From positions 2,238,501-2,302,500 of the forward strand of contig NZ_CP040517.1 of the NCBI RefSeq assembly GCF_005849285.1: a DNA stretch of 64,000 bases, written 5' to 3'. The notes beneath the pieces were generated by a model, which saw only the letters and a program-made list of their open reading frames with translations, was not told the DNA's origin and did no database searches. Position 1 is the first letter of the stretch; every line of letters begins with the position of its first letter. This stretch comes from Luteithermobacter gelatinilyticus. Its GTDB lineage: Bacteria > Pseudomonadota > Alphaproteobacteria > Sphingomonadales > Emcibacteraceae. Below are positions 41,839 to 51,923 of the stretch, in pieces. The translations under genes were made by a program, and so were the position numbers.

Positions 41839-43314
41839 ATGATGTATCTGGAGTTTACGCACAGCAATCCAGAAACGGCAGAACATACACACACAAAAGA
41901 GAACAGCGACAGGGAAACATCGCTGCCAAACCGGCTTGTCCTTTTTTCCGCGCGGGGCGAGAAGGATTTAAAAAATCTTGCCTCCTGGTTTGACCAGCAC
42001 AACTACCTTGTGGCCGTCTTTAGCAAATTCCAGGATATGTGCCGTCACCTGGACCAAAACACTTGTATTGCAGTCCTCATTGACACCCATTCCAATGGAG
42101 ACGCCTTCCCCTGTTCCGAACAACAGCTTGCCCAGCTTATGGCCCGCTGGCCGCATTTGCGCCTGATCGCGCTCACCTCGCGCAATTTATCAAAACAGAG
42201 TAAATTAGGGAACCTGATCCGTCAGGGCTTGATCTATGACTTTCATACCTTGCCGGTAGACCGGACAAGACTGCTTTATTGTCTGGGCCATATCCAGGGG
42301 CTGGTCTCGCTGGAGAAAAACACCTGTCCGCCCTCACTTCACAACCGCAACGGTTTCGGTCATCTGCTTGGCGTCTCCGAGGTCATGAAACGTGTCTATC
42401 ACACCATTAACCGGGTGAGTCAGGTCAATACCCCGATTCTGATCACCGGCGAGAGCGGCACTGGCAAGGAGCTCGTCGCCCGGACCATTCACGATCATTC
42501 CCCTTTTCGGGAGGGGGAATTTGTCGCCATTAATTGTGCGGCTCTTCCCGTTTCGCTGATTGAATCGGAACTTTTCGGGCATGAAATCGGCGCCTTTACG
42601 GGGGCGTTGCGCCGCAAAACGGGCAAAGTGGAACTGGCGGATAATGGCACACTTTTTCTGGACGAAATTGGGGACATGCCCGCCGACCTGCAAACCCGTT
42701 TTTTGCGTTTCCTGCAAAACTCCACTTTTGAGCGGGTCGGTGGTTTGAAGAGTCATAACATCAATACCCGCATTATTGCCGCCACCAATGTCAATCTGCA
42801 GGAAGCCATTCAAAACGGCCGGTTCCGCAAAGATCTTTATTATCGCCTGAATGTTATTTCCATCATTCTACCCGCGCTGCGCAAGCGCGAGGAGGACATC
42901 CGTCTGCTCGCCGAGACATATCTTGAAAAGTTTAAAACCCGGTATGGCAAACCCCGGCTGATGTTTTCACAGGCCAGTTACGAACTCATGAATAAATATC
43001 CCTGGCCCGGTAATGTCCGGGAATTGATCAGTGCCGTGCGTCGCGCCACCATTCTGACCCGGGGACGGCTCATTCACCCGGAAGACCTGGCCTTGCATTT
43101 TTCCTTGAGAGAAGCCCGTGAAACCAGCATTCCCCTAACCCAGGCCCGGGCGGATTTTGATCGCCGCTTTATCCGCACCACCCTTATCCGCAACTGCTTT
43201 AATGTCTCCAAAGCCGCAGAGGACCTGAGCATTTCGCGAGCCGCCCTTTATCGTCTTATCAAACGCCTTGGACTTGACTTTACAAAAATGAAAGGGGAGC
43301 ACACCAATGTCTGA
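41839..43314 (+). CDS. Sigma-54-dependent activator with VpsR-like N-terminus
   Basis: 491 residues. Residues 30-155 look like a degenerate receiver (VpsR-type) domain. The AAA+ domain (about 173-400) has Walker A GESGTGKE (204-211), GAFTGA (251-256) for contacting sigma-54, and FLDEIGDMPADLQTRFLRF as Walker B. A Fis-type helix-turn-helix ends the protein (NVSKAAEDLSISRAALYRLIK, about 455-475). Unlike VpsR itself, GAFTGA is intact, so it should open sigma-54 promoters; one lies at 45083. The gene overlaps the barrel gene by 8 bp, coupling regulator and outer-membrane protein. It probably drives the secreted-protein genes downstream. Confidence 0.92.
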   Translation: MMYLEFTHSNPETAEHTHTKENSDRETSLPNRLVLFSARGEKDLKNLASWFDQHNYLVAVFSKFQDMCRHLDQNTCIAVLIDTHSNGDAFPCSEQQLAQLMARWPHLRLIALTSRNLSKQSKLGNLIRQGLIYDFHTLPVDRTRLLYCLGHIQGLVSLEKNTCPPSLHNRNGFGHLLGVSEVMKRVYHTINRVSQVNTPILITGESGTGKELVARTIHDHSPFREGEFVAINCAALPVSLIESELFGHEIGAFTGALRRKTGKVELADNGTLFLDEIGDMPADLQTRFLRFLQNSTFERVGGLKSHNINTRIIAATNVNLQEAIQNGRFRKDLYYRLNVISIILPALRKREEDIRLLAETYLEKFKTRYGKPRLMFSQASYELMNKYPWPGNVRELISAVRRATILTRGRLIHPEDLALHFSLREARETSIPLTQARADFDRRFIRTTLIRNCFNVSKAAEDLSISRAALYRLIKRLGLDFTKMKGEHTNV

Positions 43315-44614
43315 TTATAAGTCCCTGTTATTTCTGTCCGGCCTGATGGCGGGCAGCTTAACCCAGAATGTGACGGCTCAGGAAACCTCCACGCCGGATC
43401 TCGAAACCCTGCTCAAAATCCTCGAAACACAGGCCCAGCAAATCGACCGGCAGGCGCGTGAACTGGAACGCCAGCGCCTAGAGATTGCCATCCAGAAACA
43501 ACGGCTCGACCGCCTCACCGGCCAGGAAACAAACGCGGCCCCTTACCCGTCGGGGACGATCGCCTCTCCCCCGCCGGCACGGCTGATACGGACCAAAGCT
43601 GTGCAGACAGCCTCTGCGCCGGAAACCTCTGTCCCGGAAGATGCCGCCACCCGCCCCAGCGAGGAACAGCGCCCCCAACAGGAGATCACCGTAATTGCCG
43701 ATGTGGGCGGGGTACTCACCCCCAAAGGACAGCTGACCATTGAACCCACCCTGACGGCCTCTCATACCTCAAGCAACAGATTTTTCTTTCAAGGCGTTGA
43801 ATTTGTGGATTCCGTCCTGATCGGCGTGATTGAAGCCACGGAAACCCGCCGCAATTATATTTCCGGACAATTGGGGTTCCGTTACGGCCTGACCAACCGG
43901 ATGGAGGTTTCGACAAAGGTTCCTTTCATCTACCGGGATGACCGAGTGGAATCCACCATAGTCAGCGAACAAAACGATAATGACGGCAGCTCCACCACCT
44001 TGCAGGATCTGAGCGGAGAGGGATTGGGCGATATCGAATTCGGAATCCAGTATCAGCTGAATGACGGCCAGGAAAACTGGCCCTATTTTGTTGCCAATAT
44101 CCGCGCCAAATCCAGGACCGGTGAAGGGCCGTTCGAGGTGGACCGGGACGAAGACGGGCTGGAAACCGAATTGGCCACCGGGTCCGGTTTCTGGAGCGTG
44201 GAGCCCAGCCTGACCATGATTTATCAGACGGATCCGGCGGTGTTCTTCACCAATTTCGGATATATCTGGAATATTGGGCGGGACGTCAATTTTCAGAACG
44301 AAGATATCTTTATCAGCCATGTCGACCCCGGGGATGCCGTGACCGGGAATTTCGGCATTGGTTTTGCCTTGAATGAAACCCTGTCCATGAGCTTCGGTTA
44401 TCAGCATAACTATATTTTTGGTACCGAGACGGAAATCAATGGCCGTTTTACCCAATCCCGTGATTTTCAGGTGGGGTCACTGCTGTTCGGGCTGGCGCTG
44501 GGCCTCGGGGAACGCACAGGGCTCAGCATGAATGTGGCCGTGGGCGTGACAGATGATTCCCCGGATGTGGAATTCACACTCAGAATGCCCTTCTCCGTCA
44601 TGCTGTTTGAATGA
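43307..44614 (+). CDS. Outer-membrane beta-barrel with N-terminal coiled coil (FapF-like)
   Basis: 435 residues. Signal peptide (about 1-25, cut near VTAQE), a coiled coil at about 28-65 (QAQQIDRQARELERQRLEIA), a Pro/Ser/Ala-rich linker to about 125, then a barrel of amphipathic beta strands ending MPFSVMLFE with the terminal aromatic. This order and length match Pseudomonas FapF, the secretin-like pore of the Fap amyloid system; the barrel also resembles the phenol-MetA-type channel family. It would export the neighbouring secreted proteins. Coupled by overlap to the sigma-54 activator and followed by a hairpin element and a terminator. Confidence 0.72.
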   Translation: MSDYKSLLFLSGLMAGSLTQNVTAQETSTPDLETLLKILETQAQQIDRQARELERQRLEIAIQKQRLDRLTGQETNAAPYPSGTIASPPPARLIRTKAVQTASAPETSVPEDAATRPSEEQRPQQEITVIADVGGVLTPKGQLTIEPTLTASHTSSNRFFFQGVEFVDSVLIGVIEATETRRNYISGQLGFRYGLTNRMEVSTKVPFIYRDDRVESTIVSEQNDNDGSSTTLQDLSGEGLGDIEFGIQYQLNDGQENWPYFVANIRAKSRTGEGPFEVDRDEDGLETELATGSGFWSVEPSLTMIYQTDPAVFFTNFGYIWNIGRDVNFQNEDIFISHVDPGDAVTGNFGIGFALNETLSMSFGYQHNYIFGTETEINGRFTQSRDFQVGSLLFGLALGLGERTGLSMNVAVGVTDDSPDVEFTLRMPFSVMLFE

Positions 44615-44637
44615 AAAATATTAACCACCCTTCTAAA

Positions 44638-44667
44638 GTGAATTGAGCCAACCTATGCACAATTCAC
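44638..44667. repeat. Dispersed hairpin element, copy 3
   Basis: GTGAATTG (44638-44645) and CAATTCAC (44660-44667) with the 14-nt loop AGCCAACCTATGCA, nearly the loop of copy 1. With copy 2 it brackets the activator/barrel gene pair. Confidence 0.7.
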
Positions 44668-44673
44668 CCTAAG

Positions 44674-44700
44674 TCCCGGCCTTCTGGCCGGGAACTTTTT
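44674..44700 (+). terminator. Intrinsic terminator after the barrel gene
   Basis: TCCCGGCC (44674-44681), loop TTCT, GGCCGGGA (44686-44693), then C and five T. A textbook rho-independent terminator separating the activator/barrel unit from the sigma-54-driven unit downstream. Confidence 0.9.
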
Positions 44701-44757
44701 GTCTGTACCCGCAAAATTTTTCTTTCCATATTTCCTGAGGAGGCCAAGAATAAGAAT

Positions 44758-44775
44758 TGTAACCGAAAGGTTACA
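44758..44775. promoter_or_regulatory. Inverted repeat, candidate activator site 1
   Basis: TGTAACC GAAA GGTTACA, perfect 7-bp arms, about 310 bp upstream of the sigma-54 promoter. Could be an enhancer-type binding site for the activator encoded at 41839 or another regulator. Confidence 0.4.
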
Positions 44776-44913
44776 GTTTTAGCCAGCAAAACCGCAGAAA
44801 CTATATTTATATAATATTACCCTAAAGTACAGATATTATAAAAATTTCATAGATATCATGGGGCTACAAAGTTGTTCTCAGACAATAGTTCTCATTCTTC
44901 CTTTTCCCGCTCG

Positions 44914-44937
44914 CCTGACATCATTCTCCGTGTCAGG
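44914..44937. promoter_or_regulatory. Inverted repeat, candidate activator site 2
   Basis: CCTGACA (44914-44920) and TGTCAGG (44931-44937), perfect arms 10 bp apart, about 150 bp upstream of the -24 element. That distance is typical for sigma-54 enhancer sites. Otherwise 44615-45196 holds no gene. Confidence 0.5.
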
Positions 44938-45082
44938 ATTCTGCGTCTATTCCCTGAAAAGTCGCCGTACGTATACAGTTTGCTAACCATAATCTTCCTC
45001 TGACTTCCTCCCCCATCTTCAACCTTCAGAAAAAATCTTTTTCTTCTTTTATATTCAATAAGATAAACAAAATAATCCGCTA

Positions 45083-45098
45083 TGGCACGCTCATTGCA
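45083..45098 (+). promoter_or_regulatory. Sigma-54 (-24/-12) promoter
   Basis: TGGCAC (45083-45088), five bases, TTGCA (45094-45098): an exact match to the TGGCAC-N5-TTGCA consensus. It lies about 100 bp before the Asp-rich protein gene and downstream of an encoded sigma-54 activator, so it most likely drives the secreted-protein genes 45197-48972. Confidence 0.88.
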
Positions 45099-45196
45099 AC
45101 AGAGAAGGCGATGGGCACGACAGTCCTGTCACGAGCAAGAGGGCTCCGTATTTACTGCCGAGCCAGATTTCATTCACCATTGAAGTGGAGGACGAT

Positions 45197-46219
45197 ATGA
45201 ACAGACTAAAACTATTGGGCAGCGTCTCTGCCATTGCCTGTATCATAGGCTTGGCCAATATTACATATGCCCAGCCGGAACAGAACGCCGACGCCGATGA
45301 ATCTTCCCAGGCCTCAACAACAGGCGGGGAAAATGTGGCCGCGGGCGGTAACGCATCCAACGCGGGTGGTCAGACCGCCGGCAGCAATGCATCCGATGAC
45401 GGATCGCAGGCCGGGGATGGGGGGAACACCTCAGACTCTGACGGGCTGGATCTGGATCTTGCGCTGGATAATGTTGCCAATGACTATTCCACCACCGACG
45501 ACAATAGCGATGACGACGGTTACGATAATGACGGTACCATCGACAACAGCTATACCGAAGTCACCGACGACAATAGCGATGACGACGGCATAGACGTGGA
45601 TGCCCCGGTCAATATCGGCAATAGCGACGACAATAGTGATGACGACGGTTACGATAATGACGGCACCATCGACAACAGCTATTCCAGTGACGACAACAGC
45701 GATGACGATGGCGTCGATGTGGATGCGCCGGTTAATATCGGCAATACCGACGACAACAGCGATGACGACGGCATAGATGTGGATGCCCCGGTCAATATCG
45801 GCAACAGCGACGACAATAGCGATGATGACTGGCTCGACAATGACGGCACCATCGACAAAAGCTACACCGAAGTCACCGATGATAATAGCGACGATGACTG
45901 GATCGACAATGACGGTATGATTGATAAAAGCTATACCGACAACAGCGATGATGATGGTTTCGATCTTGACCTGACCATGGGCGACGTGGCCGTAAACCTG
46001 TCATCCCTGTCAAGCTCAGTCTCCGGTAACTATTTTGTCTATGACACCGCACGGCGGGGCCGGGTGACGGTTACCACCGGGGATATCCGGGATACCAGCA
46101 TCTCCAATGCCCGCGGCATCACGCAAATCAACCAGAACACTGGTATTGCGTCCCAGACCAACAACATTTCCATCAGCGCCAAGGTGGACATGGCTGGTGG
46201 TGGCGGAACAACCAACTAA
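45197..46219 (+). CDS. Secreted Asp-rich repeat protein (candidate fibre subunit)
   Basis: 340 residues from ATG 45197, preceded by GGAGG; a GTG at 45185 is less likely. Signal peptide (about 1-25, IACIIGLANITYAQ). A Gly/Asn/Ala/Ser-rich segment (about 30-85) leads to eight copies of a DNSDDD core (about 103-268) in two alternating unit types of about 20 residues: one continues DNDGTIDNSY, the other DVDAPVNIGN. The acidic DxDxD spacing suggests calcium binding. The C-terminus (about 275-340) has a non-acidic module with VTVTTGDI and NARGITQINQNTG, shared with the next protein. No Cys in the mature part. First gene after the sigma-54 promoter. Confidence 0.85.
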   Translation: MNRLKLLGSVSAIACIIGLANITYAQPEQNADADESSQASTTGGENVAAGGNASNAGGQTAGSNASDDGSQAGDGGNTSDSDGLDLDLALDNVANDYSTTDDNSDDDGYDNDGTIDNSYTEVTDDNSDDDGIDVDAPVNIGNSDDNSDDDGYDNDGTIDNSYSSDDNSDDDGVDVDAPVNIGNTDDNSDDDGIDVDAPVNIGNSDDNSDDDWLDNDGTIDKSYTEVTDDNSDDDWIDNDGMIDKSYTDNSDDDGFDLDLTMGDVAVNLSSLSSSVSGNYFVYDTARRGRVTVTTGDIRDTSISNARGITQINQNTGIASQTNNISISAKVDMAGGGGTTN

Positions 46220-46332
46220 GCGTTGTCTGGCACTTAAAAGACTGCCGCACTCATCCAATACTAACATGTCAGCGGTTTTATTCCGCTGGCATGTCCCACT
46301 TCCCGGTAACAACCTGATAAGGGACAAGGAAA

Positions 46333-46803
46333 ATGTTGTACATGCCTGACTTGCTTACGGTTGACTTACGCAGGGTCACGGCCTTGTGCGTCATATTCGG
46401 CTTTATGACCGGCGGTCTTGCCCAGACGGGATATGCTCAGGATAGCTCGAAACATTCACTCTCTTTGCCCCCATCACAGATGGCATCTTCTGTCCTTTCT
46501 TCAGAAACTGAAGTTCTCCCTGACGGTAGTTTTGACGAGAATTTTGCGGGCTGGACAACCCTGTCTGCCGCCGAGATGTCACAACATAATGGCGGGACTG
46601 AAATCAATCTGGGGGATGTCGGGGTTAATCTCGCCACCAACAATGCCGCGTTACTCGGTAATAGCGTCGACGGCACGGTAACCACCGGACAGATCAAGGA
46701 TCTGAACCTGAATGATGTGGGCGGTATTAACTCCCTGATGTTCAACACCGGAAACAATGTGAATTTTCAGAGTAACATGCTGATCAATATCTTCGTGAAA
46801 TAA
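46333..46803 (+). CDS. Small secreted protein with double-Gly motif and FapA/C-like module
   Basis: 156 residues; signal peptide about 1-36 (ending near YAQ). Residues about 60-95 read TLSAAEMSQHNGGTEINLGD, where LSAAEMSQHNGG fits the double-glycine leader pattern (L at -12, E at -8, M at -7, GG at -2/-1). The C-terminal half (NSVDGTVTTGQI, then GGINSLMFNTGNNVNFQSN) aligns by eye with the C-terminal module of the Asp-rich protein. Asn/Gly-rich, no mature Cys. Not a recognised family; size is similar to FapA. Possibly an export chaperone or minor subunit. Confidence 0.75.
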   Translation: MLYMPDLLTVDLRRVTALCVIFGFMTGGLAQTGYAQDSSKHSLSLPPSQMASSVLSSETEVLPDGSFDENFAGWTTLSAAEMSQHNGGTEINLGDVGVNLATNNAALLGNSVDGTVTTGQIKDLNLNDVGGINSLMFNTGNNVNFQSNMLINIFVK

Positions 46804-46873
46804 AATAACAGGTGGAAATGGCGGAATTGACTGAAGCCGTACCTCCTGACGCCCGACATGATTCCGCCAGAAC

Positions 46874-46956
46874 GGGTAAGATATCAATGGGTAAGATATC
46901 AATGGGGCGCCGGATAATGCTTTCCCCGAGAAAGCTTCAACAAGAAAGCTTCCAAA
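46874..46956. repeat. Two tandem duplications before the C39 peptidase gene
   Basis: GGGTAAGATATCAAT at 46874-46888 and again 46889-46903 (15 bp, perfect). AGAAAGCTTCAACA at 46929-46942 is followed by a near copy at 46943-46956. They lie in the 238-bp gap between the small secreted protein and the peptidase gene. Confidence 0.75.
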
Positions 46957-47041
46957 CATGACGCCCGGCAAACTCAAGAGCTTATTCCTGCGAAGGAAGA
47001 CAACGAAGACAACAAAACTTAAACGGAATACGAGACACCCC

Positions 47042-47782
47042 ATGCCCGCGTTGTACAAGAAAACCATGTCTGATAAAATCATAGCTGGCAAAACTCTGCT
47101 CGCATTTTGCACCGGCTTTATCTTTGCTCTAGTTTCCGCAAGCGCCCAGGCGGGAACGGTTTATCTACCTACACATCTTGGCGGACCGGCCAAAATAAAA
47201 GTTGTCAGCCTCAAGGAAGCCCGTTTCAAGACCGTTATCAAACAGCAGTTTGACTTTAGCTGCGGATCAGCCGCTCTAGCGTCTCTGCTCACATTTCACT
47301 ATAACCATCCGGTTTCCGAGATTGACGTTTTCAAGACCATGTTTGAAAAAGGCGATCAGGAACGCATCCAGAAATTCGGGTTTTCTCTTCTGGATATGAA
47401 AAAATATCTGGCCAGCATTGGCTTTAATTCCGACGGCTTTCGGGTGGACATTAACCGGCTGGAAAAAGCCGGCATTCCCGCCATTGTGTTGATTAACACC
47501 GATGGCTACAAACATTTTGTCATCATTAAGGGGATTTCCAAGAATGAAATTCTGGTCGGTGATCCGGCGCTAGGGGTGCGCATCATGGACCGGGAAGAAT
47601 TTATCCAGAACTGGAACGGTATCATTTTTGTCTTACGCAGCAACATCCGGCAAGGCCAGACCCATTTCAACATGGAAAAGGATTGGAAAGTCCGCGCCCA
47701 AGCCCCCTTTGGCAGCGCACTGAGCCGTCATAGCCTGGCCGGCTTTTCCGTGCATTTAACAGGAACACTTAACAGCTTCTAG
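47042..47782 (+). CDS. Periplasmic C39-type cysteine peptidase (FapD-like)
   Basis: About 246 residues from ATG 47042; ATG 47066 and 46958 are alternatives, none with a strong Shine-Dalgarno. A signal sequence (LLAFCTGFIFALVSASAQAG) precedes a C39 domain with the oxyanion Gln and catalytic Cys in KQQFDFSCGSAAL (Cys about 74), His in YKHFVIIKG (about 158) and Asp in VGDPALG (about 174). The triad is complete. It is not fused to an ABC transporter, unlike bacteriocin exporters; this stand-alone exported form resembles FapD of the Fap system. Adjacent secreted proteins carry double-glycine sites as likely substrates. Confidence 0.85.
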   Translation: MPALYKKTMSDKIIAGKTLLAFCTGFIFALVSASAQAGTVYLPTHLGGPAKIKVVSLKEARFKTVIKQQFDFSCGSAALASLLTFHYNHPVSEIDVFKTMFEKGDQERIQKFGFSLLDMKKYLASIGFNSDGFRVDINRLEKAGIPAIVLINTDGYKHFVIIKGISKNEILVGDPALGVRIMDREEFIQNWNGIIFVLRSNIRQGQTHFNMEKDWKVRAQAPFGSALSRHSLAGFSVHLTGTLNSF

Positions 47783-47790
47783 GTGTAACC

Positions 47791-48972
47791 ATGCCTCAGA
47801 AAACCGCATCATGCGTTACCTGTCCCGTCATACCCGGCGACGCTATCCATGCTCCCACCTCAAGCTTGCCGAAAAAAATAGCGCGCAGGCTTCTGCTGTC
47901 CATCTCTCTTCTGGCTTTCTCAACCGGTTCCCTACCCCGTGTTCAGGAAGATGGGTTGATCTGGCTTGAAGCCGCCCAAGCTGCCGGAGGGAGCCCCCAA
48001 GAGCTTTTTGCAGACCTTGCTCCCCTAGAAGATGATGATTTGGCCAGACAACGCGGCGGGTTTTCCGCCGGTGGTTTTGACATTGATGTGGGGGTCACGG
48101 TCACAACAACCATAGACGGCTTTGTGGAAGTCTCCACCTCTTATTCCTATACGTCCCCGGATGGCCTGGTTCATCTGGGCAGCGATGTCAAAACGCTGGC
48201 TCAGGACCTTTCCCAAAACATCAAAGCAGCCGTTAGTGAAACCGTTGCGGACGCCCAGCAGGAAAAGGTTAAAGTTGTTTCCGCGGCCGCCGCAACAGTT
48301 GCAGCCCTCAATCTGGCCGTGGAGGAAAGCAACAGTTATGATAACAATATGTCCGCCTCCGAACAGGCCACCGCCCCATCCGTTGCGGCCAATACATCCT
48401 CACCAGATCAGGGAGGCTCTCCGGTTCTGACATTATCGTCGGCACCATCATCTGGAGTAGCGCCATCATCTGGGGCGGCTCAGGCACCTGTCGCAGCTTC
48501 GTCCCCGACTTCTTCTGCACCGCCTGCGGCAGAGGAAACAGGGATAAAAGTGACGGTACAGAATACATCTTCCGGTCCGACCACGACGCCCGTACACGCG
48601 TCGGCAGCCGCTCAGTCCGAACAATCCCCAACATCCCCTGTCCCGATGTCATCGGAAGTTACCCCGCCGCAACCTGCAACTACGCCTTCTCCGGCCGTAA
48701 CAGCAGCCGCCGCCGTACCAGCCCCCACGGCATCCCAGGAACAGGAGTCCCCGGTCCCGCACGCCCCCGTGCCCACCACGGAAATTATTCACCAGAATGG
48801 TCAGGGACATACTACCGTTTTGACAAATACGCAAAACGGCATGTCAATCCGTCAGACCATCACCTACAACATTACTTTGCAGAATTTCTCCCAGATTCAG
48901 AAATTCTCCAAACTGCAAAACAGCCTGACCCACCTCGCCCGTCATATCAGCCTGTTCAGCCTGCGCCATTAA
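47791..48972 (+). CDS. Secreted Ala/Ser/Pro-rich protein with RGG double-Gly motif
   Basis: 393 residues, starting 8 bp after the peptidase gene with an AGGTG Shine-Dalgarno. An unusually long N-terminus (about 30 residues with two Cys) precedes a hydrophobic signal stretch RLLLSISLLAFS. At about 76-90 is LEDDDLARQRGG, a double-glycine-leader-like site, followed by FSAGGFDIDVGVTVTTTIDGF (a short beta-rich module). The middle is Ala/Val-rich helix, then a low-complexity Ser/Ala/Pro/Thr-rich linker (about 185-325), then a conserved-looking tail TITYNITLQNFSQIQKFSKL. Not a recognised family; possibly an FapE-like surface or tip component. Confidence 0.75.
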   Translation: MPQKTASCVTCPVIPGDAIHAPTSSLPKKIARRLLLSISLLAFSTGSLPRVQEDGLIWLEAAQAAGGSPQELFADLAPLEDDDLARQRGGFSAGGFDIDVGVTVTTTIDGFVEVSTSYSYTSPDGLVHLGSDVKTLAQDLSQNIKAAVSETVADAQQEKVKVVSAAAATVAALNLAVEESNSYDNNMSASEQATAPSVAANTSSPDQGGSPVLTLSSAPSSGVAPSSGAAQAPVAASSPTSSAPPAAEETGIKVTVQNTSSGPTTTPVHASAAAQSEQSPTSPVPMSSEVTPPQPATTPSPAVTAAAAVPAPTASQEQESPVPHAPVPTTEIIHQNGQGHTTVLTNTQNGMSIRQTITYNITLQNFSQIQKFSKLQNSLTHLARHISLFSLRH

Positions 48973-49205: not shown

Positions 49206-51923
49206 GTGAGCAGCGAAAAACAGGCATCGTGTTTCATGAGTTCTTCAAACGCCCAACACTCCCGTTTTCCCAGATGGTTATTACGTTCCAAACTGTTGCC
49301 GCAAAAACAACTGATCTCCCTTTTGCCGCGCAAGGAGCTGCTGCGGCGTCTAAGCGAAGGACTGGAGCGGAAAATAACTGTCATTTCAGCTCCTGCCGGA
49401 TACGGCAAAAGCACCCTAGCGGCCTCCTGGCGCAAGGAACTGCAGGAGCGGGAGATTCTGGTGCCCTGGCTCACACTGGATAACGATGACAATGAGTTCG
49501 GAATTTTTGTAACCTATCTTGCCTACGCCTTCCATACAGGGGGATTTTCAGAGGAATTGGATGCCTTAGCCCCCGATGGTTTCAATATATCTCAATCCCC
49601 CCGGCAAGTAATCGGCCTGATCTGTTCCATGCTCACTGCCTCATCCCGCCGGGCCGTGCTTATACTCGACGATTTTGAAAAACTGTCGTCGCGCATCTGC
49701 CGGGAACTGATTGATCCCTTTATCGCCTATATGCCGGAAAATTTGCATCTGGTGGTGCTGTGCCGGGGACACCCTGCATTGTCGCTGAATCATCTCCGGC
49801 TTCAGGGGCAGCTCAATGAAATTGACGCCAGGGATCTGAAATTTACCCTTTTCGAAATTCAGGAATTTCTGCCGAAAGGATTTTCACGCCAGCATTTGCA
49901 GCGTATCACCGAACGCAGCGAGGGCTGGCCCGTGGCACTTCAGGTTCTGCGCCATACCCTGCATCAGAACCGCGACTATGAGGCCGTAATGGAAAAATTC
50001 TGTCACAGCAGTGAAATGACAGACGACTATTTTTCCGAACAATTTTTCAGCGGGCTGGAGGAAGAAACCCGGGACTTCCTGCTGGACGTTTCCATTCTGG
50101 ACAGAATCGACGCCAAAACGGCCGATTATATCCGCAACCGCCAGGACAGCGCCCGTTTTCTTGACGAACTCGGCGAACAGGAAACCTTTATTGTGCCACT
50201 GGAGACGGAAGACCCCAGTTTTCGCCTGCATCCTCTGCTGCGGGATTTCCTGATGGCGAAATTGTCGGTTTATCACGCAGAACGCAAACATGAGCTTCAC
50301 ACCCGCATGGCCGATTTTGAGGTGGCGCAAGGCCATCTGATCCGTGCCATGCGCCACGCTCTTGCCGCACATGATGCGCAAAGGGCAGGACGCATTCTGG
50401 AACGTGCCGGGGGAATTCTGCTCTGGAATCGGGAAGGAATGACCCGCCTGCGCCGGGCCCATGAACTCCTGCCCGATCATGTGGTCAACAGCCGCCCCCG
50501 CCTGCAACTGGTCCGGGCGCTGATTTACCTGAAGAGCGGGCAGATCAATGTCGGTCGCGATATCTATCATCATGTTCGGGCTGCGGCGGAATTCGAACGG
50601 TTGCATGACCCGCAGCTGGATTATGATCTGGCGCTGATTGCGGCCACACTGGCGGTTTATGAAGGCATGCCGCTGGACGATCAGATCTGCCGGATCCTCA
50701 TGGAACCCACGGGCCACATCCAACAGGATGATCAGGCCCAGCTTGGATTCGCGCATACCTTTCTGTGCGTTCAGCATCTGCAAAAAGGACATTTCGCCGA
50801 AGTGGAAAAAACCGGACGCAAAGCCATTGCCCTGTTCCGTCAGGTTAAATCCATTTTTGGGGAAGCTTATATTTATTTTCATCTCGGCGTCGCCGCCATG
50901 GCCGCCGGCCAACCGGACCAGGCCATGACTCATTATCACAGAGCCCAGGATATGGCCCGGCGTCACTTTATTGACGATCCGGAAATGAAACTGATCGCCA
51001 ATATCCTGATGGCTGAATGCCTGTATGAACAGAATGACATCCCCGCCAGCCACCGCCTGCTAACTGATGTGGTGCGCCGGCTGGAGAAACACGAAGCCTG
51101 GTACGAAATATATGCCGCCGGGTATATTACTGCCGCTAATATCACCTTCCTGAAAGAAGGCCTGGAACCGGCTCTCACCCTTCTGGACCAGGCTCAGGAT
51201 TATATCCAAAGGGAGCGTCTCACTCTGTTAAACAGGCTGGTAATCAGCCAGAAAGTTCATCTTCTGACCCTGGCCGGGAACCCCGCCAAAGCCCGCAGGA
51301 CGCTACAAAAGGCAGGATTGTCGCTCGAAGATTATACACAAAGCAATACCTCCATTCGGGAAACCTGCCACGTGGTTCAGGCCATCGGCCGGTTGTTGCT
51401 GAGCGAAGAACGCTATGATGACGTATTGCGTGAACTCCCGGCTTTCCGGGACAGGTTTCATCGCTGCGGTTATCCTTATGCCGCCCTGAAATTTGACATT
51501 TTTCTGGCTGTGGCATTGTACAAAACCGGGGCGATGGCAAAAGCTTTTGAACAATGCCGGGCGCTGTTTGCCACATTGCGCACTCACCGGCTTGTCCGGG
51601 TATTTCTGGACGAAGCGGTTTTGGTTCGGGATCTTCTTACGGCCTATATTGCACACTCCGACGCACAGGAAAAAGATCATGCTGCCTATCTTTTGGATCT
51701 TCTGGAACCTCAGGAGATCTCCGATATCTCAATATCCCTGAGCAAACGGGAAAAACAGGTGCTCGTACTTCTGGCGGAAGGGCATCCCGACAAGGTGATT
51801 GCCCGCCAGTTGGGCGTTTCGGAGAATACGGTCCGGTTCCACCTGAAAAACCTCTATGGCAAGCTCCGGGCTCAAAACCGCCTTCAGGCGGTCAATGAAG
51901 CGCGCCGGCAATCTTTGCTTTAA
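49206..51923 (+). CDS. MalT-like large LuxR-family ATP-dependent regulator
   Basis: 905 residues, GTG start (an ATG at 49236 is an alternative). N-terminal NTPase domain with P-loop ISAPAGYGKSTLAA and VLILDDFEKL, a long helical/TPR-like middle (about 390-830), and a C-terminal LuxR helix-turn-helix (LSKREKQVLVLLAEG, VSENTVRFHLKNLYGKL). This is the LAL/MalT class, which usually senses a small molecule and activates transcription. It follows the secreted-protein cluster on the same strand and may control it or the convergent permease genes. Its last 32 bp overlap the permease gene. Confidence 0.9.
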   Translation: MSSEKQASCFMSSSNAQHSRFPRWLLRSKLLPQKQLISLLPRKELLRRLSEGLERKITVISAPAGYGKSTLAASWRKELQEREILVPWLTLDNDDNEFGIFVTYLAYAFHTGGFSEELDALAPDGFNISQSPRQVIGLICSMLTASSRRAVLILDDFEKLSSRICRELIDPFIAYMPENLHLVVLCRGHPALSLNHLRLQGQLNEIDARDLKFTLFEIQEFLPKGFSRQHLQRITERSEGWPVALQVLRHTLHQNRDYEAVMEKFCHSSEMTDDYFSEQFFSGLEEETRDFLLDVSILDRIDAKTADYIRNRQDSARFLDELGEQETFIVPLETEDPSFRLHPLLRDFLMAKLSVYHAERKHELHTRMADFEVAQGHLIRAMRHALAAHDAQRAGRILERAGGILLWNREGMTRLRRAHELLPDHVVNSRPRLQLVRALIYLKSGQINVGRDIYHHVRAAAEFERLHDPQLDYDLALIAATLAVYEGMPLDDQICRILMEPTGHIQQDDQAQLGFAHTFLCVQHLQKGHFAEVEKTGRKAIALFRQVKSIFGEAYIYFHLGVAAMAAGQPDQAMTHYHRAQDMARRHFIDDPEMKLIANILMAECLYEQNDIPASHRLLTDVVRRLEKHEAWYEIYAAGYITAANITFLKEGLEPALTLLDQAQDYIQRERLTLLNRLVISQKVHLLTLAGNPAKARRTLQKAGLSLEDYTQSNTSIRETCHVVQAIGRLLLSEERYDDVLRELPAFRDRFHRCGYPYAALKFDIFLAVALYKTGAMAKAFEQCRALFATLRTHRLVRVFLDEAVLVRDLLTAYIAHSDAQEKDHAAYLLDLLEPQEISDISISLSKREKQVLVLLAEGHPDKVIARQLGVSENTVRFHLKNLYGKLRAQNRLQAVNEARRQSLL

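Follow-up and report, generated by a model that had tools for sequence, protein, structure and literature searches.

What does a C39 peptidase cut when it is encoded by itself, apart from any ABC exporter? The question is raised by a lone peptidase gene in a 64 kb stretch of Luteithermobacter gelatinilyticus DNA (the window), which is flanked by genes for two secreted proteins with double-glycine sites. We consider it probable, at roughly 80%, that the locus is Fap-like and that its FapD-like peptidase cuts the leaders of two neighbors, a FapE-like protein of 393 amino acids and a small protein of 156 amino acids. FapD activity is essential for the export of Fap amyloid, and the substrate of FapD has been described as undetermined (PMC6173800).

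A Fap-like locus

Positions 41839 to 48972 encode, all on the plus strand, a regulator, a FapF-like protein, a repeat protein, the 156 amino acid protein, the peptidase and the FapE-like protein. The first gene (41839-43314) specifies a sigma-54-dependent regulator with a VpsR-like N-terminal domain (Pfam Sigma54_activat, 1.6e-69; VpsR, 5.7e-9), and a similar ORF occupies the same spot in loci L057 and L058. It is followed at 43307-44614 by a FapF-like outer-membrane barrel with an N-terminal coiled coil, the putative export pore, which matches NCBIfam FapF (9.5e-48) over residues 28-429; the FapF structures 5o65, 5o67 and 5o68 were its only PDB relatives at E <= 0.01 (best E 7e-33), and it would fit the trimeric-type FapF barrel with its N-terminal coiled coil. 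The candidate major fiber subunit, encoded at 45185-46219, is an Asp-rich protein of 344 amino acids that is secreted in the Sec manner and contains DDNSDDDG tandem repeats. Its repeat units have DNA periods of about 60-123 bp and resemble calcium-binding loops, and a calcium-dependent fiber made from this protein is conceivable. The small protein with a C-terminal Fap-type module (46333-46803; recognized from its ORF, its orthologues and alignment A3), the peptidase (46958-47782) and the FapE-like protein (47791-48972) complete the locus. Whether a MalT-like LuxR-family regulator encoded downstream on the same strand (49206-51923; Pfam TPR_MalT, 9e-20; GerE, 4.5e-18) also belongs to it is uncertain. 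A 907 amino acid protein with a LuxR-like C-terminus is encoded near fapD in the FilB-type loci L104, L105, L106, L107 and L115, and a LuxR-type regulator is perhaps common to the window locus and several FilB-type loci.

The peptidase is 274 amino acids long as the longest ORF, with a probable start further in, and begins with a hydrophobic, Sec-type helix. A C39 domain (Pfam Peptidase_C39, 5.8e-23) was the only domain found in the ORF and is not fused to an ABC transporter. The match to NCBIfam FapD (8.2e-47) was better than that to FilB (2.6e-35). AlphaFold2 predicted the C39 core with a pLDDT of 94-98 by block, and the nearest folds to this predicted core were the peptidase domains of PCAT1, ComA and LahT. 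LahT, a double-glycine protease solved with a bound leader, was also the best PDB sequence match (6mpz, E 2.6e-16), and its triad aligns with Cys102, His186 and Asp202, confirming the complete Cys/His/Asp triad that an earlier note on this DNA had reported. Across 34 peptidase homologues Asp202 does not vary, and Gln96, Cys102 and His186 hardly do. The protein fits FapD as a Sec-exported, single-domain C39 peptidase with Cys, His and Asp.

Judged from sequence, this is a functional-amyloid secretion locus of the Fap/Fil type, a context that the earlier note had missed. We call it Fap-like rather than Fap because the FapD and FapF scores lie well below the curated NCBIfam equivalog cut-offs (159 of 330 bits and 163 of 700 bits, respectively). 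The fapABCDEF locus of Pseudomonas likewise has a periplasmic C39 peptidase of the FapD type, a FapF barrel and FapE following fapD. In the window, however, fapF lies ahead of the subunit genes, a small protein, the second with a leader, is encoded before fapD, and GG closes both leaders. The putative major subunit is built of Asp-rich DDNSDDDG repeats where Pseudomonas has those of FapC, and no FapA was recognized at the locus. The putative Fil pilus system (FilA, the C39 peptidase FilB, and FilC) also combines a lone C39 peptidase with a barrel, but the window proteins score higher against the FapD and FapF models than against FilB and FilC, and none of them matched FilA. PCAT1, ComA and LahT share with the window peptidase the C39 fold and triad, and a leader rule of Leu-12, Glu-8, Leu-7 and a hydrophobic residue at -4, then Gly (PMC6363468), whereas the window peptidase lacks an ABC domain and both it and its putative substrates, which are amyloid-module proteins, have Sec-type N-termini.

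Leader sites in the window

Both double-glycine sites described in the earlier note are present as written in the ORF translations, on either side of the peptidase. The first, LSAAEMSQHNGG, covers residues 77-88 of the 156 amino acid protein (46561-46596, plus strand) and has Leu-12, Glu-8, Met-7 and Gly-2, with His at -4, ending HNGG. The second, LEDDDLARQRGG, covers residues 79-90 of the 393 amino acid protein (48025-48060, plus strand) and has Leu-12, Asp-8, Leu-7 and Gly-2, with Gln at -4, ending QRGG. In both proteins a Sec-type N-terminus precedes the leader. Using a held-out leader matrix trained on beta- and gammaproteobacterial loci only, we scored all ORFs of the 64 kb, and LEDDDLARQRGG (20.6) and LSAAEMSQHNGG (17.8), in that order, took the top two places among 58,190 window positions, with the next best at 11.0. 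The 344 amino acid repeat protein has no leader (best leader score 2.6).

The predicted structure of the 156 amino acid protein was of low confidence overall (pLDDT 57) and no fold was assigned from it. At this low confidence, the sole helix predicted outside the signal peptide (79-86) lies inside the leader, and two strands are placed at 134-148. These strands lend some weight to the small beta-rich segment that the earlier note placed after each leader, although at such a pLDDT the support is weak.

Conservation of the leader beside fapD

FapD-like genes were gathered at the level of the family, the class and the phylum to which the window belongs. We read 60 of these loci, in most cases with 14-18 kb of surrounding sequence, and together with the window, L001 and L002 they make 63. 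A FapD-based scan of genome contigs yielded just two distant loci. A 14-column leader matrix was trained iteratively on the immediate fapD neighbors of alphaproteobacteria and tested on the remaining loci. It scored above 10 in 28 of the 45 same-strand, secreted, immediate fapD neighbors in held-out loci of other classes, compared with none of 195 secreted ORFs lying over 3 kb from fapD and 1.1% of shuffled neighbors. For a distance profile we used matrices cross-trained by clade and a threshold of 12.9, which was exceeded by 21 of 83 same-strand ORFs (25%) directly upstream of fapD and by 35 of 98 (36%) directly downstream, but by only 4 of 970 ORFs, and nowhere by more than 0.7% of them, beyond 2.5 kb. 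Flank scores of 8.5-12.9, such as those at L103 and L062, were counted as noise. We rejected chance as the origin of the window leaders on the strength of the held-out matrix scores and of the distance profile.

Across Proteobacteria, leaders of the same kind stand beside fapD in 47 of the 63 loci; since the loci are kin to one another, counts such as these do not represent fully independent events. Ten loci had no leader candidate, some of them having VTGQ-type leaders or lying at contig ends. The 156 and 393 amino acid proteins occur in the same three of 32 family genomes, all with a full FapD-like locus, and orthologues of the 156 amino acid protein were found solely in family genomes having the full locus. 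The earlier note had held that its proposal would fail if the GG motifs were not conserved among orthologues; both orthologue pairs retain the motif at 36-57% protein identity. For INDEPENDENCE, profiles were built from the mature parts alone, because candidates had initially been picked by the motif. FapE-like proteins outside the training set that were recovered in this way still had it (L081, LSDSELGQQRGRF; L093, VDPATLDDYRGGF; L063, LDEGELSGHRGGF), as did one in L084 with a sub-threshold score (IPDPELNLMRGRY).

Leader consensus

A consensus was derived from 64 distinct leader instances. Position -12 is Leu, Val or Ile; position -8 is mostly Glu (50%); position -7 is always Leu (48) or Met (16); position -4 is often Leu, Met or Val; position -3 is Arg in 44; and position -2 is always Gly (55) or Ala (9). 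Position -1 is Gly in 42, Arg in 15 and Lys in 5. This consensus matches the published C39 recognition pattern, in which the leader residues between -11 and -4 fold into two helical turns (PMC6363468).

In alignment A2, which comprised 31 FapE-like proteins including Pseudomonas FapE and whose members had been selected with the leader matrix, the only invariant residues were the Arg-Gly of the leader, corresponding to R88 and G89 of the 393 amino acid protein. In alignment A3 (26 proteins from fapD loci), the -2 Gly, G87 of the 156 amino acid protein, was nearly invariant. The leader of Pseudomonas-type FapE is LKDAEMAELRGRY and reads ELKDAEMAELRGRYV, and the predicted site in FapE of L077-L080 is Arg-Gly-Arg/Lys.

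Several observations stand against our main explanation, among them the ten loci that had no candidate and the short reach of the similarity between the 393 amino acid protein and FapE outside the leader. Arg or Lys occupies -1 in about 31% of the instances, a choice not used by standard C39 enzymes and differing from the PCAT and LahT leaders, and therefore either the bond cut or the specificity differs from standard C39. In addition, neither of the window residues at -4 (His and Gln) is hydrophobic. The earlier note's proposal that the lone peptidase matures its Sec-exported neighbors is upheld in direction by the leader conservation and the Sec-type N-termini, while the residue before the presumed cut is often Arg or Lys and not always Gly.

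Leader-bearing proteins and related modules

By hhalign, the 393 amino acid protein matched the FapE-like set at 98.5% and this set matched Pseudomonas-type FapE at 91.7%. The direct match of the 393 amino acid protein to Pseudomonas FapE was weak (35%), so that the relationship is bridged via intermediates, and outside the leader the profile similarity spans only about 30 residues. A FapE-like protein downstream of fapD is thus present, its leader and N-terminal segment being homologous to FapE via those intermediates.

Strong leaders were found on both sides of fapD in 18 loci, the window included. In these the upstream ORF encodes a small protein with a C-terminal amyloid-system module and the downstream ORF a FapE-like protein. 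The module, GI..xxxNTGNNxxxQxxxxINxx, resembles a segment of FapE and also ends the 344 amino acid repeat protein, from residue 267 on (mature-domain HMM, E 2.5e-4). The C-terminal modules of the 344 and 156 amino acid proteins are related, but the repeats of the former are of the DDNSDDDG type and not of the GNxGNx2AGx2NQQxN type of the subunits FapB and FapC. The 156 amino acid protein is a candidate minor subunit of the nucleator type.

The leader precedes differing sequences, namely those of FapE-like proteins, the small protein, the linker between coiled coil and barrel in some FapF proteins, and FilA/DUF6160-type proteins. Because unlike sequences follow the leader, while proteins sharing the module, such as the 344 amino acid protein, lack it, the leader behaves as a detachable tag. 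On FilA/DUF6160-type proteins of FilB-type loci, including the relative in L107, the analogous leader ends in VTGQ and not in GG as in the window. Leader-like motifs in the FapF linker were found in L066 (LSDDELGEARGG, score 24), L092, L095 and L097, which suggests that in some lineages FapD may cut the pore protein itself, as was previously suggested (PMC5557850). The FapF linker of L062, a locus among those with weak flank scores, also carries a leader-like motif. Upstream of fapD in L109 there are three ORFs with leaders ending in TAG (LNDSQMDNVTAG, LSAAQMDEVTAG and LSNAELDGVTAG), making L109 a possible multi-substrate FapD locus.

Published work on FapD

The earlier note had regarded a periplasmic C39 step separate from ABC transport as an inference from this locus. 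Such a step is supported here, but it is not new as such, being that of FapD in the Fap amyloid system: in Pseudomonas FapD resides in the periplasm, and the secretion of FapC depends on the FapD cysteine (PMC5557850). The same study described the Fap proteins as having no canonical C39 sequences, and its mass spectrometry detected no peptide from the N-terminal ~70 residues of FapE. A review of December 2025 goes no further than to say that FapD "is thought to" process both FapE and FapF (PMC12822426). In the open-access literature we found no published FapD leader or cut site. Since the predicted site in FapE of L077-L080 is a potential target of trypsin as well, trypsin mapping would be unable to tell cleavage by FapD from digestion and, going by those sequences, we infer that it would mask a FapD cut in FapE.

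What is probably new here is the generality of the leader and the pinning of probable FapD substrates and a site. If the broader reading given below is true, the long-sought substrate and site of FapD would be identified. With the conserved leader the site can be predicted exactly and a second class of substrate comes into view, so that the question of what FapD cuts becomes directly testable, and the leader can be used to look for what further lone C39 peptidases cut.

Proposed mechanism and alternatives

In the mechanism that we propose, Sec would export the pre-proteins and signal peptidase would remove their signal peptides. The periplasmic FapD-like peptidase would then recognize the leader helix, with its aliphatic -12, acidic -8, Leu/Met -7 and hydrophobic -4 residues, on the FapE-like 393 amino acid protein and on the small 156 amino acid protein, and would cut where the leader ends in Gly(-2)-Gly(-1). 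The matured minor subunits, resembling nucleators or anchors, may cross the FapF-like barrel or begin fiber assembly with the leader-less protein encoded at 45185-46219. Proteolysis would thus serve as a checkpoint for the minor subunits that initiate the fiber, and the major subunit would not be subject to it. The leader is present in the FapE-like and small proteins but absent from the repeat protein, and for this reason the cut probably controls the start or the anchoring of the fiber rather than bulk subunit supply. Across the loci the most likely substrates of FapD are FapE-like proteins, joined in many lineages by a second, small protein with the amyloid module, the cleavage being what we infer. 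With less assurance, we lean towards a broader reading in which FapD-type enzymes would be a widespread periplasmic branch of C39 peptidases whose recognition signal is a double-glycine-type leader on amyloid-system proteins exported by Sec, with fiber initiation held as an inactive precursor until the cut; this would include maturation of the small nucleator-like protein, of FapE (with RG[RK] as the site in Pseudomonas) and, in some lineages, of the FapF pore.

The leader might instead serve for docking only, with FapD acting as a chaperone or assembly platform for FapE-like proteins and the functional cut lying elsewhere, for instance in the FapF linker. C39-like domains that lack peptidase activity do tether substrates in HlyB-type exporters (PMC6173800, PMC5557850), and some FapF linkers bear the motif, as noted above. 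We nevertheless think this unlikely, as the matrix found no leader-type site in the linker of the window's own FapF, the triad of the window peptidase is intact and hardly varies from homologue to homologue, the C38A substitution in Pseudomonas FapD abolishes secretion (PMC5557850), and few leader positions are as strongly conserved as Gly-2, which adjoins the expected cut.

It is still less probable, and in our view improbable by a wide mark, that the motif is simply the conserved start of the FapE fold and has no proteolytic meaning. In FapE-like proteins RG[GRK][FY] does run on into a conserved, beta-like segment of 30 residues, but the motif also stands ahead of unrelated sequence in the small protein, in FapF linkers and in FilA-type proteins, and the C39 rule fits at -12, -8 and -7, upstream of the beta-like segment.

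A search of the Luteithermobacter genome for other C39 domains found one ABC exporter with a C39-type domain, an HlyB-like protein encoded near 1011949 (L124) in which Thr replaces the catalytic Cys. That the two GG proteins are substrates of such an exporter and lie beside fapD incidentally, as canonical GG leaders belonging to exporters of this kind might suggest, is hardly credible and was rejected, because the domain of this sole candidate is degenerate, Sec-type N-termini stand ahead of both leaders, and the leader tracks the position of fapD across the loci. The maturation of both proteins by the FapD-like peptidase remains our preferred reading.

The genome also encodes, near 2814609 (L125:915-2295), a second lone C39-type peptidase, a lipoprotein-like member of the PA2778 family with TPRs. 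Upstream of it lies a gene for a secreted PA2779-family protein (DUF6627) with a leader-like sequence, ALSDEEIRQIADQLESEPAGAG, before a membrane helix, and the two may constitute another periplasmic pair of C39 peptidase and leader.
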